From Cephaloticoccus sp. (lineage in GTDB: Bacteria > Verrucomicrobiota > Verrucomicrobiia > Opitutales > Opitutaceae), in the NCBI GenBank assembly GCA_030833445.1, contig JAURHD010000022.1, positions 1 to 39,317 of the forward strand: DNA of 39,317 nt, read 5' to 3'. The notes under the pieces are model-generated. The model worked only from the letters and a program-made list of their open reading frames with translations. It searched no databases and was not told the DNA's origin. Numbering within the stretch: position 1 is the stretch's first letter; each line of letters begins with the position of its first letter. The translations under genes were made by a program, and so were the position numbers. Below are positions 2,626-23,660 of the stretch, piece after piece.

Positions 2626-3402
2626 TCAGAACTGCCAGCCCATTCGCACTACTGGTGTGTAGTCAGGGGCACTTCTCGTCAGGCCAGCATACAGCGCGAC
2701 ATCGAGCCACGCGGATGGGTTGAACATGTAGGTAATCCCGCCGCCGATCTCCCCCGACCAATTCGACGCATCGGATAGATCGATCCAACCCGAGAATTCT
2801 CCATATGCGGCCCATTTGTCGTTAATCGTTCGAGTAAAGGACATACTCCCGTAAAGCGGGATATCCCGACCCCCGGCACCGTCATCCAGGCAATCCATTC
2901 CCAGATTTGCATTCCATTGCGTCAGCTCCCCTAGCGGACAATCGAAAATCAATACGACACCGGGCTCCAGTGAGCCGTTGCCCAAGTCGTCGTTTGCCAA
3001 GGGTAATTTTAGATAGGGCAAGAGCGCCCAGCCCGGACCTTCGGTTTCGTTGCCACTAAAATTCCATTTCGCCCTGAACCAACCATCCCCATTCCCGGAG
3101 TTGGTTGAGCTGGCGCCCCCGCCAACGATTCTTTCCTCTCGTCCGATATCCATGCCGAATTGGATATCCAACCGATCACTCAGTCCGGTGGAAAAGAGCA
3201 ACGAGCCAATCGTCGTCGAGCGATATTCTACGCCATCTTTCCCCGGGGTGTGACGATCGATCGCCATGCTGAAAACATCCACTTCCAGCAGCCAGCCGCT
3301 TTGGGGTGCGGTGGAACTTGCCTCGGTCAACTGGGCAAGTGCATGGCTTGAAATGCTCCCCAAGACCAACACCACGCCCAATCTAAATCCGCGCAAATCC
3401 AT
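2626..3402 (-). CDS. Outer-membrane beta-barrel protein, MetA/phenol-degradation transporter-like
   Basis: This is a 258-residue exported protein. A signal peptide (residues 1-24, ending SHALAQ) is followed by alternating amphipathic strands rich in Gly, Trp, Tyr and Asp. The C-terminus is aromatic (GWQF), as expected for BAM-assembled barrels. The pattern LLFSTGLSDRLDIQFGMDIG resembles the PF13557 group of poorly characterised outer-membrane transporters. No TonB box or plug domain is visible. The gene starts 21 bases after the FeoB membrane-subunit stop on the same strand, so it is probably the last gene of the Feo operon and a candidate outer-membrane pore for the same cargo. That functional link is inference. 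Its stop lies 6 bases from the convergent permease stop. Confidence 0.7.
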   Translation of the reverse strand: MDLRGFRLGVVLVLGSISSHALAQLTEASSTAPQSGWLLEVDVFSMAIDRHTPGKDGVEYRSTTIGSLLFSTGLSDRLDIQFGMDIGREERIVGGGASSTNSGNGDGWFRAKWNFSGNETEGPGWALLPYLKLPLANDDLGNGSLEPGVVLIFDCPLGELTQWNANLGMDCLDDGAGGRDIPLYGSMSFTRTINDKWAAYGEFSGWIDLSDASNWSGEIGGGITYMFNPSAWLDVALYAGLTRSAPDYTPVVRMGWQF

Positions 3403-3423: not shown

Positions 3424-4869
3424 CTAGGCAAACAACCGCCAAACAAATGCGACGCTAAAGGTAACCAGCACACCAATGGCCACGGGTAGCAGCGTGGAAA
3501 CCACGGTCCATTTCACACTGCCGGTTTCCTTGTAGATCGTGTAGATCGTCGTGCTGCAGGGATTGTGCAGCAGACTGAAGAGCATCAGATTGATTGCGGT
3601 CAACAAGGTCCAGCCACCGGCCTCGAGCACACCTTTGGTCGCCGTATCCGAATCGAGTTCAAACATGACCCCCGCACCGGCACCAACCCCGTGCACCCCG
3701 GCCACCAACACCGTCAACATGAGTATGGTTGGCACCACGATTTCGTTGGCCGGGATCGCCACCACGTAGGCAATCAAGATGACTCCGTTCAAACCTAGAG
3801 CCAGCCCGACCGGGTCGAGTCGGTAGATCAACCAATGCGCAAGACTGGCATCCCCCACTTGGATATTCGCAATCAGCCAGATTGCCGCGCCGGCCGGAAT
3901 AGCGAAAACGATGGCCCGCCAGAGCACGAAAATCGTGCGATCAATCAACGAAGTATAAAGAGTCTGGAGAATGGCCGGGGGCCGATAGGGCGGCAGCTCA
4001 AGACTAAAGGACGAGACTTCGCCTTTTAGCACCGAACGCGACAGCACCCAGGAGACGACGAGGGTGAATCCCAATCCCAGCAAAGCGACTCCGGTCACGG
4101 CCGCCGCGGATACCAAGCCCGCCCAGTGGGCCGGCACCAATACGCCGATGAAAATCGAGGCGATCAGAATTTGGGTCGGCCAACGACCGTTACAGAGGGC
4201 AAAATTATTGGTAATGATCGCGATCAATCGTTCGCGCGGGCTATCGATGATCCGGGTCGCCACCACGCCGGTGGCATTGCAGCCAAAGCCCATCATCGTG
4301 CTCATCGTTTGTTTGCCATGCGCGCCGACACTTTTGAAAAGTCGGTCCATGTTGAAAGCCACCCGCGGCAGATAGCCGAAGTCCTCCAGCATGGTGAATA
4401 GCGGGAAGAAAATAGCCATCGGCGGCAGCATCACACTGATAACCCAGGCCATGGATAGATACATGCCATCCACTGTCAGCCCGGTCAGCCAAGCCGGAAA
4501 CCCGAGATCGACCATGACTTCACGCAAAATCGGCCAGAGCCAGCCAATGAAAAAATCCGCCAGCCAACCCGATGGTGCATTCGCGCCGATGATCGTGATC
4601 CAAAACATCAGGGCAAAGAGCAGCAGCATTATTGGGAAACCCCACAACCGGCTGGTCAGGATACGATCAAGTGAACGATCAAAAGTGGGACGGGCGCCGC
4701 GTCCGGGACGGGTAACGGAGCGGTCGGCAATCCGTGCGGCATCGCTGTAGATCGCCTCTACAATGTGCTCGTGCACATCACCGGGTATTTCCCGGCGTAA
4801 GCGGCGGGCAGTTTCCAGAATTCCCGTTGGATCCATCTTGGCGGAGGAACTTGCAGCAGTTGAGGCCAT
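3424..4869 (-). CDS. feoB: FeoB membrane (permease) subunit of a split FeoB
   Basis: This 481-residue protein corresponds to the C-terminal membrane half of FeoB. A short cytoplasmic helix ([17 protein letters not shown]) leads into [14 protein letters not shown], the classical entry to the first membrane span. Two Gate domains and the FeoB_C region follow. The first Gate has [13 protein letters not shown] and [12 protein letters not shown], where most FeoB proteins have SCSAR. Near the end is [17 protein letters not shown]. The ATG at 4869 is preceded by AAAGGA and lies 7 bases past the stop of the GTPase subunit. The gene therefore looks like a true separate cistron rather than a sequencing frameshift. 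It should form the Fe2+ (possibly Mn2+) channel with the GTPase protein. Confidence 0.9.
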
Positions 4870-4876
4870 AATTCCT

Positions 4877-5704
4877 TTAGGCCGAAACCGACTCCTCAAT
4901 TCCCTTGGCCAGGGTCAGGGCTAGATTGCCCAAGGTGCCGTCGCGCATGGCCGCCGAGAGACTTTCATCACCACCGAGGAGCCGCATGGCCACCCAGCGG
5001 GCATTGGGCAAATCGGGATATGCGGCGGAAATTTGCGCGACCAATTCATTCAGGGCAGCCTTCAAGGCCGGGGGCTCATTGGTCAAACGATACGGCCGGC
5101 AGGTAATTTTCCCGGAAGCGACATCAGAGATCACTTTAAGCAGTTCAGGGAGACCTTCCCCTGATCGCGCGGAGGTCGGCACCACTGGCACCCCCAAATC
5201 ACGGGCCAGTTGACGATCGTCCACCACGACTTGATGGCGGCGCGCTTCATCCATCAGATTCAGGCACAACACTACACGGTCGGTGATCTCCAAGACCTGA
5301 ATCATCAGGTTCAAGTTGCATTCCAGTCGGGTCGCATCGGCCACGACCACGGTTACATCCGGTTGCCCGAAAAGTATAAAGTCCCGGGCAATTTCCTCAT
5401 CCAGACTTGTGGATAGCAGCGAGTAAGTCCCGGGAAGATCGACTATTTTGTAACGTTGTTCCGCATAAGCGAAACCACCTTCCGCTCGCGTGACCGTTTT
5501 GCCCGGCCAATTACCGGTGTGTTGCCGCAGACCCGTCAGGGCATTGAAAACCGTGCTCTTTCCCGTGTTGGGATTGCCTGCCAATGCGACCACGAAGTCC
5601 CATTGCTCCATATTCACGCCCAGCTTTTTGAGATTGGCGGCGCGGTAGACGCTGCAAGTGGCACATGCCTCAGTCGGCGGGGTGATAGCTGGCTCGGTTT
5701 TCAT
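4877..5704 (-). CDS. feoB: FeoB GTPase (N-terminal) subunit of a split FeoB
   Basis: This is a 275-residue cytosolic G protein. The G motifs are clear: G1 GNPNTGKST (43-51), G3 DLPG (89-92), G4 NLMD and G5 TSARSGEG. The region after about residue 190 is the helical GDI-like domain, which is cut short because the downstream linker sits in the next cistron. An unusual N-terminal CxxC (C14, C17) precedes the conserved KKLGV segment. Its ATG overlaps the stop of the upstream DtxR-FeoA gene (ATGA at 5701-5704), suggesting translational coupling. Known FeoB biology assigns nucleotide-regulated Fe2+ transport. The split form is directly visible here. Confidence 0.93.
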
Positions 5705-6738
5705 GAGGTTAAAATTGGCTCCGGCACTTTCATTCTTTGTCCGATGCGGATGTGCTTTGCCTGTTCGCGTCGCAGGGCGATCACCGTGCCTCGCACCCGA
5801 TAGGCGATCGGATCACCACTGGGACTGATCATCTCCACTTCGATTAACGTGCCGGGCACAAAACCCAGATCGAATAAACGTCGGCGTTCAGCCCCGCGAC
5901 AGGCTGCACTCAAACTAATCACGCGGGCCTGTTCACCCGGCAGCAAGCCGGCCAGATATTCTTCCTCGAACAAGTCTGCGGCCGTGGCACCTGGCACCGA
6001 CACATAGGCAATGTTGTTGGCGAGGATGGGTGCGAGGGCGATTTCACGCCCTTCCGACCAAATCCGCACGCAGTCGCGCTCCTTCACAAACACACAAATG
6101 CGCATGCCGGGGCGCAATCCCAGGGCGAGAATCTGCCGATAGACAGCATCCGGTTCGTCCTCAATGTGCACGATTTCCAACGGCAGATTGAGCGGAGCCG
6201 TGTTCAAAGGTTGGCCTGAATCGGCATCAAGTTCTCCACCGGATTCCGGAATGGCGTCTCCGTGTGGATCCACCATCGGGTGGCCGAGCCGTGCTTCCAA
6301 GACCTCGGCTTCCTGAGGAGAGATAGAGTGTTCCTTGCGCTCGGCCAAACGATGCCACTGGGATTCATCCACTCCCGTTTGCTCCGCGAGATAACTTTCC
6401 CACAGCCGGTGCGCCCGCACGATATGCAGGGCCAGTTCACGTCCGGCGGGCAAAAGCATCAACCGACCTTCCGCATGCGTAATCAGCCGGCTAAGCTCCA
6501 TGGTATTCAACAAGTCCGCGGCGACATTATCCCGAAGATGCAACGCACCCGTGACACTGTTCAAGGTGGGCACCTGACCGTTCACTTCGCATTTCAAAAT
6601 GTGTTTCAGCGCGTCTTCCTGCCTCACCCGCACTTGGCGGCGACGGGCATCCCGCCAACGGGAAATCACCCCGATGCCCGGCCAGAACAACAGCGCGGCC
6701 ATCAAACCAAAGGAGAATATGAGCAATAGTTCAGTCAT
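5701..6738 (-). CDS. Membrane-anchored DtxR-type metal sensor fused to two FeoA-like domains
   Basis: The 345 residues form four parts. A single N-terminal membrane helix (about 3-25) is followed by an Arg-rich stretch, predicting a cytoplasmic body. A winged-helix region spans about 38-105. A DtxR metal-binding and dimerisation domain (106-165) has H110, E114, H129, E133, E136 and H137 matching the family ligands, plus D42 at the first-ligand position, and ends in [13 protein letters not shown]. Two FeoA/SH3-like domains follow (about 185-248 and 262-335). The second contains [18 protein letters not shown], typical of FeoA. It starts 5 bases after the MntR-like stop and overlaps feoB by 4 bases. 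It could act as FeoA for the split FeoB, as a membrane-tethered regulator, or as both; this is inference. Confidence 0.85.
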
Positions 6739-6743
6739 CGATA

Positions 6744-7409
6744 TCAGGCCACCGCGCCCACGACAATTTTGGCGGCGGCAGTGAGTCCCAGTGCGATTTC
6801 ATGACCGATCTTGGTTTCGCATCGAACCACCCCGCTGGCCTCCTCGCGCCGTAGCACCTTAACCCGGGTCCCCGGCTTGAGCCCCGTATCCTGAACATAA
6901 GCCAGGAAATCTGGCGATTGGTCGAGAATCCGTGTAACCTGGAGAGACTTGTTAATGGCGCAGCCCTGCATGGTGACTTGGGTCGCTGTGTCGGCAATTA
7001 CCCCTTCCTGATTGGGAATGGGATCACCGTGTGGATCAGCAGTTGGGTGTCCCAGAAATTCGTCTATCCGCTCCAAAACTCGGTTTGAAACCGCATGCTC
7101 CAATGCCTCTGCTTCATCGTGCACTTCGGACCAGTCCATTTTCAAGGTTCGGACAAGAAAGGTTTCCACCAAGCGGTGCTTCCTCAGCACTCCAAGCGCC
7201 AGGGCCCGGCCAACCGGGGTCAGCCGCACGCCTTGCCGCGATTCGTGTTCCATGAGGCCCTGGGCAGCCATGGCTTTGACCATTGTCGTAACTGTGCCGG
7301 GCACTACGCCAAGGGCTTCAACCAAGGCCCCCATGGGCACAATACCGTCGTTCTCCTGTTCATGCAGGAGCGTGGCTTTCAAGTAGTTTTCGACGGTGCT
7401 CGTGGCCAT
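6744..7409 (-). CDS. DtxR/MntR-family metal-dependent transcriptional regulator
   Basis: This is a 221-residue soluble regulator. The N-terminal winged helix includes GALVEALGVVPGTVTTMVKA as recognition region. The dimerisation domain follows with H78, E82, H97, E101, E104 and H105. The Glu at 101 replaces the Cys of DtxR/IdeR and is the MntR-like choice. The first metal ligand, however, is Asn8 rather than Met or Asp, and Lys11 replaces the MntR Glu. GHPTADPHGDPIP closes the domain, and a C-terminal SH3/FeoA-like domain spans about 155-220. The ATG at 7409 fits the family start; a TTG nine bases upstream is possible. As first gene of the feo operon it probably represses that operon, and perhaps the divergent ABC permease operon, when metal is plentiful. 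Confidence 0.9.
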   Translation of the reverse strand: MATSTVENYLKATLLHEQENDGIVPMGALVEALGVVPGTVTTMVKAMAAQGLMEHESRQGVRLTPVGRALALGVLRKHRLVETFLVRTLKMDWSEVHDEAEALEHAVSNRVLERIDEFLGHPTADPHGDPIPNQEGVIADTATQVTMQGCAINKSLQVTRILDQSPDFLAYVQDTGLKPGTRVKVLRREEASGVVRCETKIGHEIALGLTAAAKIVVGAVA

Positions 7410-7423
7410 GAGTATCAATATGG

Positions 7424-7434
7424 TTACCCGTAAA
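7424..7434. promoter_or_regulatory. Candidate metal-regulator operator (TTACCCGTAAA)
   Basis: This near-palindrome (TTAC-CC-GTAA) lies 15 bases upstream of the MntR-like ATG and just before the divergent promoter. A similar string (TTAACCCGTAAT) sits upstream of the ABC ATPase operon at 23715. It is a plausible DtxR-family operator, but the motif is short and untested. Confidence 0.35.
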
Positions 7435-7441
7435 GTCTATT

Positions 7442-7469
7442 TTGAATACTCGAAATGCAAGCGTATTAT
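7442..7469 (+). promoter_or_regulatory. Probable sigma70 promoter for the ABC permease operon
   Basis: TTGAAT (7442-7447), a 16-base spacer and TATTAT (7464-7469) give a good match to the -35/-10 consensus, pointing to the plus strand. Transcription would start near 7476, leaving a leader of about 93 bases before the permease ATG at 7569. The overlap with the regulator's upstream region would allow joint control of both operons. Confidence 0.5.
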
Positions 7470-7568
7470 GCGGTTAATGCCTCTCTGTTTCACAATTCAC
7501 CCGGTAGAAACAAATTCCGGCAAATACGCCTTGCCGCGTTAAAGTAGCTACGGCCAAACTGCGCCCCG

Positions 7569-9263
7569 ATGTCGAAATCCTTTGCGCGCATCGTCTTCGC
7601 CCTGACGGCCACATTTTTTGCGGCGTTCTTCATCTGGCCTATCATCCAGATACTTAAAGGCGGCTTCATCGACGCCGACGGGCATTTCACCATCGATTAC
7701 CTCACGGCCCTGCTCAAGGACCCATTATACTTGGGTGGCCTCAAGAACTCCTTCCTCTTGGCCTGCGCCACGACGTCGCTGACCCTGATCATCGCCCTGC
7801 CTCTTGCGTTCATCACGGACCGCTTTCTATTCCCGGGTAAAGCCTTCCTCGGGTCACTCATTCTCGTGCCAATGATTCTGCCGCCCTTTGTGGGGGCGAT
7901 CGGCATCAAACAGATCTTTGGGCAATATGGCGCCGTCAACAGTCTCCTGATCGGCATGGGCTTGCGACCGGAGGGTTGGACCTTCGACTGGTTTGCCGCT
8001 AATCAGTTCTGGGGAGTCGCGGTCATCCAAGCCCTTTCGCTCTACCCAATCATTTACCTCAATGCGGTCGCCGCCTTGGCCAATATTGATCCCGCGATGG
8101 AAGAAGCGGCGGAGAACCTCGGGTGCACCGGCTTTCGCCGTTTTTTCAAAATCACCCTGCCCTTGATGATGCCCGGTCTCTTTGCCGGTGGCACGATAGT
8201 CTTCATCTGGGCTTTCACGGAACTCGGCACGCCCCTTGTCTTCGATTACGCGCGGGTGACGTCAGTGCAGATTTTCTACGGCTTGAAGGATATCGGTGGG
8301 AATCCGTTCCCTTACGCCTTGGTAGCGGTCATGCTGTTCAGCTCTTTCACGCTATATGCCATCGGCAAGGGACTCTTTGGCCGCACGAATTACGCGATGA
8401 TGGCCAAGGCCACGAGTAGCGGAGGTCCGCGGTCACTTGGTCCGGGTCGCCGCTGGCTCTGCACCATAATGTTTGCCGGAATAACCTTGATCGCCGTGCT
8501 GCCGCATATGGGCGTCGTGCTCGTCGCCTTTTCCAAGGACTGGTATGGCACCATCCTTCCGCAAAACTTCACATTGGACAATTTCAGCATCGCACTCGGT
8601 CACGACCTCACGGTTCCCGCCATCGCCAACAGTCTGAAATTTGCCAGTATTTCCACGGTCATTGATGTCATCCTCGGGATCGCCATCGCGTATGTCGTGG
8701 TGCGCACCAAAATTGCCGGACGGCAGGTGCTCGATTTTCTCGCGATGCTTCCTCTGGCGGTGCCCGGACTCGTGTTGGCGTTTGGGTATCTGGCCATGTC
8801 GCAAGAGGGCAAGTTCTTCGATTTTATCAATCCGGTCGAAAACCCCACCGTTCTGTTGATTATCGCCTATTCGGTGCGCCGCCTACCCTACGTCGTGCGT
8901 TCGGCCGCAGCGGGTTTTCAGCAAACCAGCGAAACCCTTGAGGAAGCCGCGCAAAACCTCGGCTGTCCGCCGCTCAAGGCGACTTTTAAAATCACGCTGC
9001 CACTCATAACCGCCAACCTGATAGCAGGTGGGTTGCTCGCCTTTGCATTCGCGATGCTGGAAGTCTCCGACTCGCTGATCTTGGCACAAAAACAAGTTTA
9101 TTACCCGATTACCAAGGCCATCATGGAGCTCTTCCAGTTGTTGGGTGACGGCAAGTTCATAGCCAGCGCACTGGGGGTTTGGGCCATGGTATTCTTGGGC
9201 GTGACGATCGTGGGTATGAGCCTGTTGCTCGGTAAAAAACTCGGCGCGATCTTTCGCGTCTGA
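7569..9263 (+). CDS. Iron-type ABC transporter permease, two fused MetI domains (FbpB-like)
   Basis: This is a 564-residue inner-membrane permease with about 12 membrane spans. It holds two repeats of the binding-protein-dependent permease domain. Each carries an EAA loop: EEAAENLGCTGFRRFFKITLP (about 178-198) and EEAAQNLGCPPLKATFKITLP near residue 460. The duplicated architecture is typical of Fe3+ permeases (FbpB, AfuB, HitB) and of some thiamine or phosphonate systems. No ATPase or binding protein lies beside it. The matching pair is most likely at 20965-23660. It diverges from the metal-regulator/Feo operon, which supports an iron role. No Shine-Dalgarno is visible at its ATG. Confidence 0.88.
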   Translation: MSKSFARIVFALTATFFAAFFIWPIIQILKGGFIDADGHFTIDYLTALLKDPLYLGGLKNSFLLACATTSLTLIIALPLAFITDRFLFPGKAFLGSLILVPMILPPFVGAIGIKQIFGQYGAVNSLLIGMGLRPEGWTFDWFAANQFWGVAVIQALSLYPIIYLNAVAALANIDPAMEEAAENLGCTGFRRFFKITLPLMMPGLFAGGTIVFIWAFTELGTPLVFDYARVTSVQIFYGLKDIGGNPFPYALVAVMLFSSFTLYAIGKGLFGRTNYAMMAKATSSGGPRSLGPGRRWLCTIMFAGITLIAVLPHMGVVLVAFSKDWYGTILPQNFTLDNFSIALGHDLTVPAIANSLKFASISTVIDVILGIAIAYVVVRTKIAGRQVLDFLAMLPLAVPGLVLAFGYLAMSQEGKFFDFINPVENPTVLLIIAYSVRRLPYVVRSAAAGFQQTSETLEEAAQNLGCPPLKATFKITLPLITANLIAGGLLAFAFAMLEVSDSLILAQKQVYYPITKAIMELFQLLGDGKFIASALGVWAMVFLGVTIVGMSLLLGKKLGAIFRV

Positions 9264-10143: not shown

Positions 10144-11613
10144 ATGATCCCTACTCCTCGTCCTAATGTAGCCGCACTCGGCAATTGGATCCGCTCCTGG
10201 GTGCAACCCAGCGGCGCCATCCACGGTTTTCATAACCATCCGGTCTGGGGGGCCAATCCCTACCGTTGGGGTGACATGACCGCTGGTCACACCACCTGGG
10301 CCTCGCCGTTTATTGCCGGCCTCGCCGAAGCCATCAGTAAGAAACCGGATCCGCGCGCCAAGGCGTTGGTCGAGCAACTGATCAATTTTCAAAGCACCAG
10401 TTTCGCCGACGACGGACAATATAAGCACATCGGATTCAACGCAGGTGAAATCTGCCAACGTGGCCTCATCCACAATGCCGTGCCCAATCTTTCATTGGGT
10501 CTTGCGGCGTTTTACGCCAAGGACTGGCTACCGGCGAAACTGATGGAGCAAATTCGGACCGCCATTATCCGCAATCTCGAGGTGGGTTGCATGCCCTACG
10601 GCACCAACGGACGTCCTGACAAAACCGCCGTCACCAACCAGGACTATGCCCGCATCTGGGGTAAACTGCTCTTCACGCATGTTTTCGAAGACAAGCGTTG
10701 GTATGACTCCACGCGGGAAGACATCGATTACATGATCAAAACTTTCCACATCAGCGGTATGCCGGATGCGGATTGCGCGGGCACGCTGCGGATCCTCGGC
10801 ATCAAGGACATTCTCGAACCGTCTGAGTATTATGGCCTGATGATCTGCCCATTGCTGTTGGCCGCGGAGATTTATGGTGATGAGCGTTACATCGATGAAG
10901 CCGGCAAACTTTGCCGGCACGTCGCGCGTTCACAGTGGGTCGACGAGCGCGGTTTTACGCGCTGCCATCGCACTTGGTTTTACCACGCCGGTCGCTGGCA
11001 TCACAACCGCGGCCCGATGCTGATTGGCGGCATGGGCGATTCACTGGAAGGCATTCAACGTTATATTCGGTTGCGGCCTGACGCTGAACTCGAAGCTTTT
11101 CTCAAAGCAACCGACCGCACCTATGCTGGATATCAGCATCCGCGCGGCTTCTTTGTTTCCGGCACAGGCTGGGAAAGTGAATGTGATCTCGCACCGAGCA
11201 CTGGTTGGCAGAGTCACGATTTCCGCAACCTCGTCCACCGGCATGGCGTGAACGAAACGTTTTGGGATGAGTTCTTCAAGGAGGACAACCGCATCTCAAT
11301 CCTCCTCGGCGAACAATGCCTTTGGATGGAACAGGGTTCGCGTTGGATGATCGGTGATTACCTTTGGCAGGGCGTTTTCAATTTGGTTGGCCGCAAGGAT
11401 TGCGTGAAGTTTGGTCCCAATCTGCCCGACTGGGTGGAAGGCGGCTGGCACGCACCTGAAAACTATCCGATTCCGGACAAACCCGTTTTCCTCAAAGTCG
11501 ACGACTACATCAAACTCTGGACCGGAGACTGGTCCCAATTGGATGTCACCTCGATTGCGAAAACTCCCTTGATTATCGAACCGGCCATGTCGACCACGAT
11601 CAGCCCTCCCTGA
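10144..11613 (+). CDS. Uncharacterised 489-residue protein, possibly an (alpha/alpha) barrel enzyme
   Basis: I do not recognise this protein. It has no signal peptide and no membrane helix, and is rich in Trp, His, Tyr and Arg. Repeating helix-like blocks separated by conserved-looking loops suggest a six-hairpin (alpha/alpha) fold like those of glycoside hydrolases and polysaccharide lyases. The loops include GFNAGEICQRGLIHN, HNRGPMLIGGMGDSLEG and GWESECDLAPSTGWQSHDF. Several His, Glu and Asp residues in them could form an active site. It is the third gene of the ABC permease-EamA operon, so its substrate may be linked to a transported small molecule. The enzyme class is inference only. Confidence 0.6.
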   Translation: MIPTPRPNVAALGNWIRSWVQPSGAIHGFHNHPVWGANPYRWGDMTAGHTTWASPFIAGLAEAISKKPDPRAKALVEQLINFQSTSFADDGQYKHIGFNAGEICQRGLIHNAVPNLSLGLAAFYAKDWLPAKLMEQIRTAIIRNLEVGCMPYGTNGRPDKTAVTNQDYARIWGKLLFTHVFEDKRWYDSTREDIDYMIKTFHISGMPDADCAGTLRILGIKDILEPSEYYGLMICPLLLAAEIYGDERYIDEAGKLCRHVARSQWVDERGFTRCHRTWFYHAGRWHHNRGPMLIGGMGDSLEGIQRYIRLRPDAELEAFLKATDRTYAGYQHPRGFFVSGTGWESECDLAPSTGWQSHDFRNLVHRHGVNETFWDEFFKEDNRISILLGEQCLWMEQGSRWMIGDYLWQGVFNLVGRKDCVKFGPNLPDWVEGGWHAPENYPIPDKPVFLKVDDYIKLWTGDWSQLDVTSIAKTPLIIEPAMSTTISPP

Positions 11614-20964: not shown

Positions 20965-22578
20965 CTAACGGCTTTCCCGTGCGAGTTGCGCCGCGAGTTG
21001 ATATTGGGCCCGTAGCTTGGTGCCAAGTTCATTGGCCATCCGCACTTCCTCGACTTTGTTTTTTGCACTCAGTGCCCCTTTGATCGGTCCGCTAACCTGA
21101 TCATAGCTGAGCACAGACATGTCATTGAGGACCTTCATGGCCTCGGGTGGCATACCGGCCGCAATTACCGCCCGCCATGCCTCGACCAGTTCATTGTGGG
21201 TATCGAGACACATTACGCGGATGGCAAAAGCCATCTCGCGAAACAAACGGCCAGTCCAGGCTGGTTCGTAGATCAACTGATCTTCACCAAAATACGGTTC
21301 GGCGTCCGGATCGGAACGATACTGTTCCCAATCGGGTTCGGCATAAAACTCCTTGCGCACCGGCAGGCGGCGCAATGCAAACCGGGTCGGACCGCCGGGA
21401 GTATCGACCTTAAAGTTCCAGAGTTTCTGGCCAGTCATCGAAAGGGTATATTCTATGAACAACTCCGCCACTTCACGATTGGGCGCCCCCCGTAACAACC
21501 CGATCGGATCGACTGAACTAACCGTGCCACCCCGCGGGGTAACATAGACCAAACGTCCGGAATCATCCCGCCGGGTAACAGCCTCAGCCTGGTATCTTCC
21601 ATAAAAATCGATGCAGATCCCCACCGCCGAATTACCCTGCGATACATCGATCGGTGGTTTTTGAGAGGAATCGGTGAAATACCGCGCATTGGCACCCAGT
21701 AATCGCATGATACGCATCCCCTCGTCCCAACCTTCGCGGACCGCCCGGGATTCAATTGTCTTCGGGTCAGTGCCTTTCAACTCGGAGGTAAGTGCCCGCA
21801 GCCGAATCTGCATCTGCTGTTGGATTAAATTCTCAAATGCTTTCGCAATGGACCCACTCTTGGTCGGGTCGCACAGGGCCACCTCCCCAATCAACTTTGG
21901 GTTGGTCAAATCCCGCCAGTGGGCCGGGGGAACATCCATGCCCAACCGTTTGATCGAATCCTTGTTATAGAGTATCCCATAACTGCTCAAAACATTGCCT
22001 ATCCAGCGCCCTTCCTCATCCCAGTATTGTTCACCGGCAAAAGTATAGGGAATCGAGTCGTCGGTGAACCACTCCAGATGGGTGGTCAAAATTCGCGACG
22101 ATACCAATCGACCAGCCTGTGCTTGCCGGATGAAATCATAGCTCCCGCCACCGAAGAATAGATCAATTCCACAACCGACCTTGGAACTCAGGAATGACTC
22201 GCGGGCCGCGGTGGCCTCGGCAGAAGCATCACCGGACAGCCGGCTATTGGCAAAGGCAGATTGCACTTCAATGCTCCATGGATACTGCAGTTCATTGGTC
22301 CAATAATTTTGAAAAGCAGAGACATATTCGGATTCTAGAAAACGAGCGATCTCACTGGTCCCACCTATAACGCGCCAGTCAATCGCGACCGTCCGCTGAG
22401 TTTTTTCCAGATACCATTTTCTAAAACCCGCAGTAAATTCATGCCGGATCGCCTCGTTATGCGGAGTGATAATAACCAGGATATCATCCGCCTGCTCGAG
22501 GCCAGTTTGCGGTGGTCGCATGATAAACGGCAGCGCTACCGTAGCGATCAAGGCGAGGATGATGATTACCCGCTTCAT
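20965..22578 (-). CDS. ABC transporter substrate-binding protein (large, iron-type)
   Basis: This is a 537-residue exported binding protein, much larger than the usual ~340 residues of Fe3+-binding proteins. An N-terminal hydrophobic segment (RVIIILALIATVALPFIM) lacks a lipobox, so it is either a cleaved signal or an anchor. The body holds the cluster-1 pattern: DILVIITPHNEAIR at the start, DLFFGGGSYDF, a hinge around WIGNVLSSYGILYNKD, and GEVALCDPTKSGS. A helix-rich C-terminal part (after about 420) is extra. The upstream ATPase stop overlaps a possible TTG start at 22590; the ATG at 22578 is preferred because GCGAGGCG precedes it. With the ATPase it lacks a local permease, and the 7569 permease is the obvious partner. 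Confidence 0.8.
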   Translation of the reverse strand: MKRVIIILALIATVALPFIMRPPQTGLEQADDILVIITPHNEAIRHEFTAGFRKWYLEKTQRTVAIDWRVIGGTSEIARFLESEYVSAFQNYWTNELQYPWSIEVQSAFANSRLSGDASAEATAARESFLSSKVGCGIDLFFGGGSYDFIRQAQAGRLVSSRILTTHLEWFTDDSIPYTFAGEQYWDEEGRWIGNVLSSYGILYNKDSIKRLGMDVPPAHWRDLTNPKLIGEVALCDPTKSGSIAKAFENLIQQQMQIRLRALTSELKGTDPKTIESRAVREGWDEGMRIMRLLGANARYFTDSSQKPPIDVSQGNSAVGICIDFYGRYQAEAVTRRDDSGRLVYVTPRGGTVSSVDPIGLLRGAPNREVAELFIEYTLSMTGQKLWNFKVDTPGGPTRFALRRLPVRKEFYAEPDWEQYRSDPDAEPYFGEDQLIYEPAWTGRLFREMAFAIRVMCLDTHNELVEAWRAVIAAGMPPEAMKVLNDMSVLSYDQVSGPIKGALSAKNKVEEVRMANELGTKLRAQYQLAAQLARESR

Positions 22579-22586
22579 CGCCTCGC

Positions 22587-23660
22587 TCAATCCAACAGGA
22601 CTACAACGTCCTCGGGTTCGACCGCGGCAAAAATCTCGCCACGAGTCGCTCCGTCCACGAAGCGCGGATTGCGCTCGAACACCTTGAGGGTCGTATCCCG
22701 GACAATCAGTTCATATTGGGCGACCTCTCCGAGATAAACAAAAGCACCAATTTTACCCCGCACCGAATTGCGCTCCACATTTCGATCGCGACTCAATTCC
22801 CAGCACTCAGGCCGGATTGACAAGGTGACTTCCTGGCCAATTACCGGCGTGCGGGACTCATCGCCCAGCACGCCGTCAAACCGGCCGATCGCCGTCTCGA
22901 CCGTAGCCATATTGCCATTCAAGCCGGCCAACTTGCCGGGGATAAAATCGGTTTCACCGATAAAATTCGCCACCGTCTTTTTCCGGGGCCGTTTGTAGAC
23001 TTCACGCGGGGTGCCCACTTGCAAAATGTGTCCACTCTCGAGAATAGCCATCCGGTCAGATATGGAGAGCGCCTCCTTTTGATCGTGGGTCACGTAGACC
23101 GTGGTCAACTTGAACTCCTTGCAGACCCGCCGGATTTCCGTGCGCATTTCCAATCGAAGCTTGGCATCCAAATTGGACAGCGGTTCGTCCAACAGGAGAC
23201 AGCGTGGACGGATCACCAAGGCCCGGGCGAGCGCCACTCGCTGCTGCTGGCCACCGGACATTTGATTGGGTTTGCGGTCCGCATACGGGCTCATTCGAAC
23301 TGATTCCAAGGCCTCACCCACCCGTCGCTTTATCTCGGGTTTCGATACTTTGCGCTCTTCCAACCCAAAGGCCACATTCTCGGCCACAGTCATATGCGGC
23401 CACAGGGCATAACTTTGGAACATCATACCCGTGTTGCGCTTGTGCGGCTCCAGTTTGGTCACGTCCTCATCGCCAAAATAAATATGGCCGGCTTCGGGGA
23501 TATAAAATCCAGCCAGGCTGCGCAGCAGGGTCGTCTTGCCGCAACCACTGGGCCCAAGCAGGAAAAACAACTCGCCCGGTTCTATGGTCAGGTCCAAATC
23601 GTGTAACGCCGTGATGGCGCCAAATCGTTTCGTTAGTTTTTCAATACGAATGGATATCAT
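22587..23660 (-). CDS. ABC transporter ATP-binding protein (FbpC/PotA type)
   Basis: This is a 357-residue ATPase. Walker A GPSGCGKT (36-43), Q-loop MMFQSYALWPHM (Q82), signature MSGGQQQR (134-141), Walker B LLLDEP (155-160) and the H-loop VTHDQ are all intact. They are followed by a C-terminal TOBE-like regulatory domain (about 245-350). The MSGGQ start, rather than LSGGQ, is a common variant. The domain layout matches importers of Fe3+, polyamines or sugars. It is the first gene of a two-gene operon with the large binding protein and overlaps its possible TTG start by 4 bases. Confidence 0.92.
   Translation of the reverse strand: MISIRIEKLTKRFGAITALHDLDLTIEPGELFFLLGPSGCGKTTLLRSLAGFYIPEAGHIYFGDEDVTKLEPHKRNTGMMFQSYALWPHMTVAENVAFGLEERKVSKPEIKRRVGEALESVRMSPYADRKPNQMSGGQQQRVALARALVIRPRCLLLDEPLSNLDAKLRLEMRTEIRRVCKEFKLTTVYVTHDQKEALSISDRMAILESGHILQVGTPREVYKRPRKKTVANFIGETDFIPGKLAGLNGNMATVETAIGRFDGVLGDESRTPVIGQEVTLSIRPECWELSRDRNVERNSVRGKIGAFVYLGEVAQYELIVRDTTLKVFERNPRFVDGATRGEIFAAVEPEDVVVLLD

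Follow-up and report, generated by a model that had tools for sequence, protein, structure and literature searches.

The window analysed here, 39,317 nucleotides in length, comprises positions 1 to 39,317 of contig JAURHD010000022.1 from a Cephaloticoccus sp. genome (GCA_030833445.1). On its minus strand lies P0001 (5701-6738), the gene for a 345-residue protein in which a DtxR-type metal sensor with its SH3 domain is preceded by a predicted membrane anchor and followed by a FeoA domain. In the P0001 family the constraint on the DNA-reading surface has been lost and the metal ligands are nearly invariant. We lean, if only slightly, towards regarding P0001 as the FeoA subunit of a second FeoB, one that senses metal and is anchored in the membrane. 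We know of no established mechanism that makes FeoB activity follow the cytosolic metal. Since P0001 carries its FeoA domain together with a metal sensor and an anchor, both this question and that of the role of FeoA become testable in one protein.

Architecture, metal ligands and predicted membrane anchor of P0001

A sequence-only reading of the window had proposed an open reading frame at 5701-6738. The frame exists; it starts with an ATG and runs from 6738 down to 5701 on the minus strand, a strand that the reading had left out. The assignment of the gene draws on this frame, on homologues and on Pfam matches of its product to Fe_dep_repr_C (PF02742; residues 97-165, 5.7e-23) and FeoA (1.4e-23 for the whole protein). 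To the structure prediction that the sequence-only reading had called for, AlphaFold2 contributed a model built with a 31-row family alignment (pLDDT 94.0, pTM 0.86). It contains helices at residues 2-18, 24-52 (one long helix), 59-66 and 70-82, a two-stranded wing, metal-binding and dimerisation helices inside 97-150, and strand sets at 186-247 and 269-332, and so supports an N-terminal helix, a DtxR body and two SH3-like units. In Foldseek and VIA-align comparisons, residues 39-248 fall on Mn- and Fe-dependent repressors, among them 5zr6 (Z 21.1, rmsd 1.9, 206 aligned residues, 24% identity); the VIA-align superposition spanned residues 34-248, and the last FeoA domain was judged by sequence only.

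Because residues 39-248 superpose on DtxR-type repressors, the first of the two FeoA-type domains (codons 186-247, 5998-6183, minus strand) is the usual SH3 domain of DtxR, which the canonical neighbour also has, and the second (codons 262-332, 5743-5955, minus strand) is an added, true FeoA domain. The claim of two FeoA-type domains holds in this form: the second matches PF04023 strongly (65.5 bits), and the first, recognised by its modelled strands, reaches 23 bits, just at the Pfam cut-off. The mean column entropy of domain 262-332 was 1.47, the second lowest among eight segments measured.

The sequence-only reading had also described a winged helix that carries all six main DtxR ligands. 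The ligands H110, E114, H129, E133, E136 and H137 are indeed present at these numbers and align with the ligand columns of IdeR, but they reside in the metal-binding and dimerisation domain (codons 97-165, 6244-6450, minus strand), which is defined by PF02742, ligand conservation and the fold match to 5zr6. The winged helix itself (codons 41-96, 6451-6618, minus strand) is modelled with the expected fold, but it is degenerate, with variable DNA-contact columns, and did not match PF01325 (Fe_dep_repress, the DtxR DNA-binding domain) at E values up to 1. The product of the neighbouring gene P0002 matches PF01325 at 4.8e-9.

For the conservation analysis, removal of near-copies reduced the P0001 family from 117 to 93 rows and the canonical regulators from 87 to 68. 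An earlier row set had left out the copy of the window itself, the duplicate loci L023, L024 and L026, the truncated L022, and L048 and L050, which are likely permease fusions. Rows were called tethered when a stretch of 17 residues reached a hydropathy of 1.6 or more, which gave 74 non-redundant tethered rows, the P0001 of the window being one of them. Both the primary and the ancillary DtxR-type ligands are present in P0001. H110, E114, H129, E136, H137, D157, D194 and E195 occur in 74/74 tethered rows, and H159 and H191 in 73/74. Position E133 holds Glu in 67 rows and Asp in seven, and D42, the contribution of the winged helix to the ligand set, is Asp in 67 and Asn in seven. The expected conservation of the six named ligands in homologues was thus upheld, with five of them invariant. 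H191 and E195, which belong to the HIEDEP motif of the SH3 domain (H191, D194, E195), mark the P0001 family; the 68 canonical rows mostly carry Arg (56 rows) at the former position and often Gln (35 rows) at the latter.

The N-terminal membrane helix suggested by the sequence-only reading (codons 2-18, 6685-6735, minus strand) was recovered both by AlphaFold2 and by hydropathy, the best 19-residue Kyte-Doolittle mean being 2.19 at residues 4-22. Its presence in 74/74 tethered rows follows by construction from the hydropathy threshold; independent support comes from a motif at the membrane exit and from its spacing. The motif, PxxG, reads FWPGIG in P0001 (codons 18-23, 6670-6687, minus strand). 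P20 is found in 66/74 tethered rows, G23 in 67/74 and both in 64/74, and exactly 17 residues separate G23 from E41, the start of the DtxR part, in 72/74. The body of the protein is predicted to be cytoplasmic, since Lys and Arg are more numerous in residues 21-40 than in residues 1-4 (74/74 rows).

The linker behind the motif and the first DtxR helix are modelled as the single helix 24-52. In DtxR, metal binding makes the first six residues uncoil, which avoids a clash with DNA (PMC7762939). DtxR residues 3-6 correspond by structural alignment to residues 35-38 of P0001, which fall within the long helix 24-52 leading away from the membrane. In a tree of the bodies calculated without the N-terminus, the tether needs two changes, and its origin may nevertheless have been single. 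The open-access literature searched yielded no membrane-tethered DtxR-FeoA protein; databases surely contain such proteins under automatically assigned names. The same architecture is known in an untethered form; what is undescribed in this literature is the combination of a tether with a lost DNA-reading constraint, present in several phyla and beside one FeoB subfamily.

Distribution and the adjoining FeoB

A scan of public genomes returned 22 loci, 21 of them matching over at least 314 of the 345 P0001 residues, under titles that name Acidobacteria, Calditrichaeota, Myxococcales, Ignavibacteriaceae, Zixiibacteriota, Bacteroidetes and Verrucomicrobia/Opitutaceae. Full-length homologues, tethered or not, were found in 16/387 genomes of the Verrucomicrobiota phylum. 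They also occur in 41/395 genomes of the phylum to which the Ignavibacteriaceae locus L018 belongs, which we take to be Bacteroidota in GTDB, in 32/297 of the phylum that includes the Acidobacteria locus L005 and in 2/9 of the small phylum of L016. Because full-length homologues with the same domain order span several phyla, chance is excluded as the source of the architecture. Wherever the start was visible, the homologues from the L018 phylum (31/31) and the L005 phylum (28/28) had the helix. Among the fetched loci, a hydrophobic N-terminal helix was seen in 30/30 from the former phylum and 28/30 from the latter, the other two being sequence-incomplete. Of the 19 rows classed as untethered, L135 and L145 are cut off where the available DNA stops, which leaves 17 truly untethered relatives, all from Verrucomicrobiota. 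In related genomes, a part of P0001 (approximately residues 6-166) also matches frames of about 430-570 residues (L048, L050 and others), which, judged by their length, are likely permease-DtxR fusions of the YtgCR kind.

The stop codon of P0001 (TGA, 5703-5701) shares four bases, ATGA, with the start of the adjoining feoB gene P0003 (ATG, 5704-5702), as the sequence-only reading had noted. P0003 (4877-5704, minus strand) encodes the FeoB GTPase domain as a separate protein of 275 residues (PF02421, 1.3e-58), and P0004 (3424-4899, minus strand; likely start at the ATG at 4869) the membrane part (PF07670 Gate, PF07664 FeoB_C), so that FeoB is split into two genes in the window. A FeoB GTPase is encoded directly downstream in 73/73 tethered loci with room for it and in 19/19 rows classed as untethered.

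These linked FeoBs share one gate motif type where it is readable, and a single branch (SH-aLRT 100%) separates them from 14 other FeoBs, in a tree from a fast search, in which the other FeoBs have long branches. It contained 14 of 18 other-FeoB regions (the remaining four yielded no row), taken from the genome of the window and from the genomes of the tethered loci of the public-genome scan rather than from untethered genomes, together with 59 linked rows left after thinning, among which the FeoB of the window occurs twice; L069, L085, L087 and the FeoB2 of Porphyromonas gingivalis stood outside it. The FeoB linked to P0001 is a second one: another FeoB was present in 16/16 genomes checked and in that of the window, where an ordinary feoA-feoA-feoB operon lies on another contig.

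The FeoA domain (PF04023) of P0001 is encoded directly before feoB, as is the case for FeoA. In the loci L069, L085 and L087, dtxR, feoA and feoB lie side by side as three genes and show the P0001 arrangement in unfused form. Their FeoB GTPases are 53-59% identical to that of the window, compared to 33-47% for those canonical FeoBs that gave a GTPase match, which indicates that P0001 occupies the place of feoA.

The location next to a split FeoB also fits an unlikely, though serious, alternative, in which P0001 is an assembly or stability factor that uses its tether and FeoA domain to keep the GTPase next to the membrane part of FeoB, and in which its metal sites play a structural role or hand metal over instead of sensing it. 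FeoB is split in 49/71 tethered loci where both parts were visible, including the window, the FeoA domain is strongly conserved, and there is a precedent in FeoC, another winged-helix accessory protein of FeoB (PMC7762939), which protects FeoB from FtsH (PMC10710835). However, the tether also occurs alongside a FeoB in one frame (22/71), and we rejected on this ground the idea that it serves only to hold a split GTPase. The near-invariant, complete set of sensor-type ligands and the dimerisation domain likewise suggest more than a clamp.

DNA-reading surface and the canonical regulator

Four closely spaced minus-strand genes follow one another in the order P0002, P0001, P0003 and P0004 and presumably form one operon. 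P0002 (6744-7418, minus strand; likely start at the ATG at 7409) encodes a canonical regulator of the DtxR/MntR type with PF01325, PF02742 and PF04023 all above cut-off. To compare the DNA-reading surfaces of the two proteins, we used ten DNA-contact columns; PMC7762939 names eight of these, and two (P39 and Q43) were derived from PDB titles. Across all rows the mean entropy of these columns was 2.68 for the tethered proteins, 2.53 for their untethered relatives and 1.89 for the canonical regulators, with scaffold values of 1.35, 1.25 and 1.34, respectively. At the 41 loci that encode both proteins, it was 2.52 for the tethered protein versus 1.74 for its canonical neighbour; the two proteins hardly differed in the scaffold (1.25 in both) or in the rest of the winged helix (1.76 versus 1.75). 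The excess of the tethered protein was 0.69 (bootstrap 0.48 to 0.92). Random sets of ten winged-helix columns reached the tethered value in 11/2000 draws and the canonical value in 1054/2000; related sequences are non-independent, which makes these test values optimistic. The net charge of the winged helix was lower in the tethered protein than in its neighbour at 30 of the 41 loci, equal at six and higher at five. PF01325 was recognised at E values up to 0.001 in only 4/41 tethered proteins versus 41/41 canonical neighbours, a contrast that covers those 41 of the 74 tethered rows that have such a neighbour.

Upstream of the canonical regulator lies the palindrome ATTTTGAnnnnTCAAAAT (7439-7456), with one mismatch in the window. 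It emerged from an alignment of this region in the window and five relatives, all six of which carry it, and is likely, as a sequence-based assignment, the operator of the operon. A repeat finder run on 7380-7600 reported only a different palindrome. Allowing up to one mismatch, we found no other ATTTTGAnnnnTCAAAAT site in the genome of the window. Within the genus, all six P0001-encoding genomes carry the site before the regulator, one of them (G001) with a second site elsewhere; of the three without P0001, two lack it and G004 has a single site, elsewhere. The reversed pattern gave 0 sites in these nine genomes. At up to three mismatches the window contains three matches compared to 2.13 expected, no rarer than chance, and the weight of the palindrome therefore comes from its conservation and the genus search, not from rarity within the window.

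Canonical regulators frequently accompany the tethered form. In the 68 tethered loci for which 900 or more bases of upstream sequence were available, a P0002-like gene was found on the same strand in 34 and in divergent orientation in six; one of the 17 untethered loci had one close by. P0001 and P0002 are the only proteins in the genome of the window (97.75% complete) that match the DtxR metal domain. Another DtxR-family protein was encoded in 8/9 checked genomes with a tethered form that lacks a canonical neighbour, and in 16/18 further genomes (17 untethered, one tethered). Taken with the palindrome, these findings favour a division of labour between P0001 and P0002.

Besides the optimistic test values and the quick FeoB tree, several observations weigh against a P0001 that has left DNA for FeoB. 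Palindromes with 8-bp arms precede 17/30 tethered genes without a canonical neighbour (shuffles: mean 6.8, at most 10) and 11/16 untethered genes (mean 4.2, at most 8). Two genomes with the untethered form and an estimated completeness of 100%, G010 and G187, lack any other DtxR-type protein; together with the palindrome excess, this keeps DNA binding by the P0001 family possible. In gel shifts, PgMntR of P. gingivalis associated with the promoter of its own gene at 700-1000 nM, whether Mn was present or not (PMC4805248). The predicted fold of P0001 still matches DNA-bound DtxR and IdeR. At eleven DNA-contact positions P0001 keeps only the R60 of IdeR (as R92) and P0002 only T40, so that letter identity with IdeR does not discriminate between the two. 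In the canonical regulators the DNA-contact columns show no stronger conservation than the remainder of the winged helix, and the case for a lost DNA-reading function rests on the variability contrast and on Pfam, both of which are independent of the IdeR letter counts. Since variability of the DNA surface is just as high among the untethered relatives (2.53), tether and lost DNA constraint need not be linked. Finally, the membrane location of P0001 is a prediction, and a shared operon falls short of proof that P0001 touches FeoB.

Several of these points would suit a membrane-tethered transcription factor, a DtxR body that represses its own operon, alone or as a heterodimer with P0002: the winged-helix fold is kept, with repressors of the DtxR/IdeR/MntR type, some of them DNA-bound, as its best structural matches, palindromes are in excess, PgMntR binds promoter DNA, and P0002 itself retains few IdeR letters at the DNA contacts. 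We nevertheless consider such a factor quite improbable. The scarcity of PF01325 matches, the unusual variability of the DNA-contact columns and the more acidic winged helix argue against it, as does the separate DtxR-type protein in the genome of the window and in all but one of the nine tethered-form genomes checked that lack a canonical neighbour. Moreover, the helical tether sits where uncoiling on DNA would be required (PMC7762939). A membrane precursor that is cut to release a soluble repressor, as YtgR is from the chlamydial permease-DtxR fusion YtgCR (PMC7755916), is very improbable, since the linker has a constant length (72/74 rows) and is modelled as a helix, and the released body would still be without a DNA-binding signature.

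Proposed role and comparison with known systems

Near-invariant ligands, unconstrained DNA columns, a single FeoB subfamily and a near-constant tether geometry together favour the reading of P0001 as a membrane sensor that acts on FeoB rather than on DNA, which had already been put forward from the sequence as one possibility. According to this model, P0001 would be the FeoA-type subunit of a second FeoB, held at the membrane by its anchor and fused to a DtxR-type sensor. The DtxR sites would take up Mn(II) or Fe(II) from the cytosol, the dimer would rearrange, and the rigidly held FeoA domain would change its grip on the FeoB GTPase. The most likely direction is that plentiful metal shuts import. 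Control of transcription would fall to P0002, with the palindrome at 7439-7456 as its probable binding site. The transported metal may be manganese rather than iron, because of the analogy to PgMntR and FeoB2 and because the primary site of P0001 has the Asp and Glu of Bacillus subtilis MntR; this is the weakest step of the model. The direct gating of FeoB, its direction and the choice between Mn and Fe are what we infer from these comparisons.

On the evolutionary side, we tentatively suggest that a repressor became a transporter subunit: DNA reading would have been lost and the metal switch retained, a rigid anchor would have been acquired, and the protein would now pass direct feedback from cytosolic metal through its FeoA domain to a second, possibly Mn-importing FeoB, with the sister DtxR protein of the operon keeping transcription. 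If this is true, the promoter and the pump each respond to the same metal signal, and feoB-adjoining genes annotated as DtxR-type regulators may be transporter subunits.

Other genes of the window lie around the operon. A protein matching PF13557 is encoded at 2626-3402 (minus strand), directly after feoB on the same strand, and its gene is possibly part of the same transcription unit. Pfam matches suggest a scattered ABC importer, with a fused double permease at 7569-9263 (plus strand), divergent from the operon, and a binding protein and an ATPase at 20965-22590 and 22587-23660 (both minus strand), about 12 kb from the permease. With respect to its substrate, the best 25 NCBIfam models per protein were all below cut-off. 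A 489-residue protein encoded at 10144-11613 (plus strand) had no Pfam match at 1e-4.

Among known proteins, PgMntR (PG1044) of P. gingivalis comes closest. This soluble DtxR protein carries twin FeoA domains, and its gene shares an operon with feoB2; FeoB2 is a manganese transporter, and PgMntR binds Mn and Fe (PMC4805248). A double-FeoA DtxR protein, which the sequence-only reading had not known, is therefore already on record, and we discarded the idea that this architecture is unprecedented. P0001 likewise has a DtxR body, an SH3 domain, a second FeoA domain and an adjoining second FeoB. Eleven of the twelve predicted ligand positions of PgMntR correspond to P0001 at an offset of +25, namely H85, E89, H104, C108, E111 and H112 to H110, E114, H129, E133, E136 and H137, and D132, H134, H166, D169 and E170 to D157, H159, H191, D194 and E195; D19 corresponds to D42 at +23. 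This kinship of P0001 with the PgMntR/FeoB2 pair rests on the residue numbers given in PMC4805248, not on a sequence alignment. Genome G454 was tried as the PgMntR genome and rejected, as its protein is tethered. PgMntR differs in being approximately 25 residues shorter before the ligands and highly soluble as a recombinant protein, whereas P0001 has a helix predicted by hydropathy and AlphaFold2 to lie in the membrane; in having Cys108 where P0001 has Glu133; and in its binding to promoter DNA. FeoB systems of the Mn type have been proposed as a 'Meo' family (PMC8749426).

The repressors DtxR, IdeR and MntR (5zr6, 1c0w, 1fx7, 8pvt) share with P0001 the fold of residues 39-248 and the primary and ancillary ligands. 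In contrast to them, P0001 adds an anchor and a second FeoA domain, and its winged helix is not recognised by the DNA-binding model. In the chlamydial YtgCR (PMC7755916), a DtxR-type domain is also attached to a membrane protein of metal uptake, but that protein is an ABC permease, and the fusion is cleaved into a repressor. FeoC, whose DNA binding was never demonstrated (PMC7762939), resembles P0001 as a winged-helix accessory of FeoB. FeoC is not known to have the DtxR metal-binding and dimerisation domain.

FeoA of Bacteroides fragilis slows GTP hydrolysis by FeoB approximately 50-fold; according to the same paper, a consensus on the effect of FeoA was never reached, and DtxR-fused FeoA proteins were manually removed from its survey (PMC8980893). 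P0001 shares with FeoA and with the B. fragilis FeoAB fusion (7r7b) a C-terminal FeoA domain and the position next to feoB. FeoA, however, is an 8-kDa soluble protein without sensor body or anchor, and P0001 is a fusion of 345 residues. In B. fragilis FeoAB, FeoA is joined to FeoB; in P0001, it is joined to the sensor.

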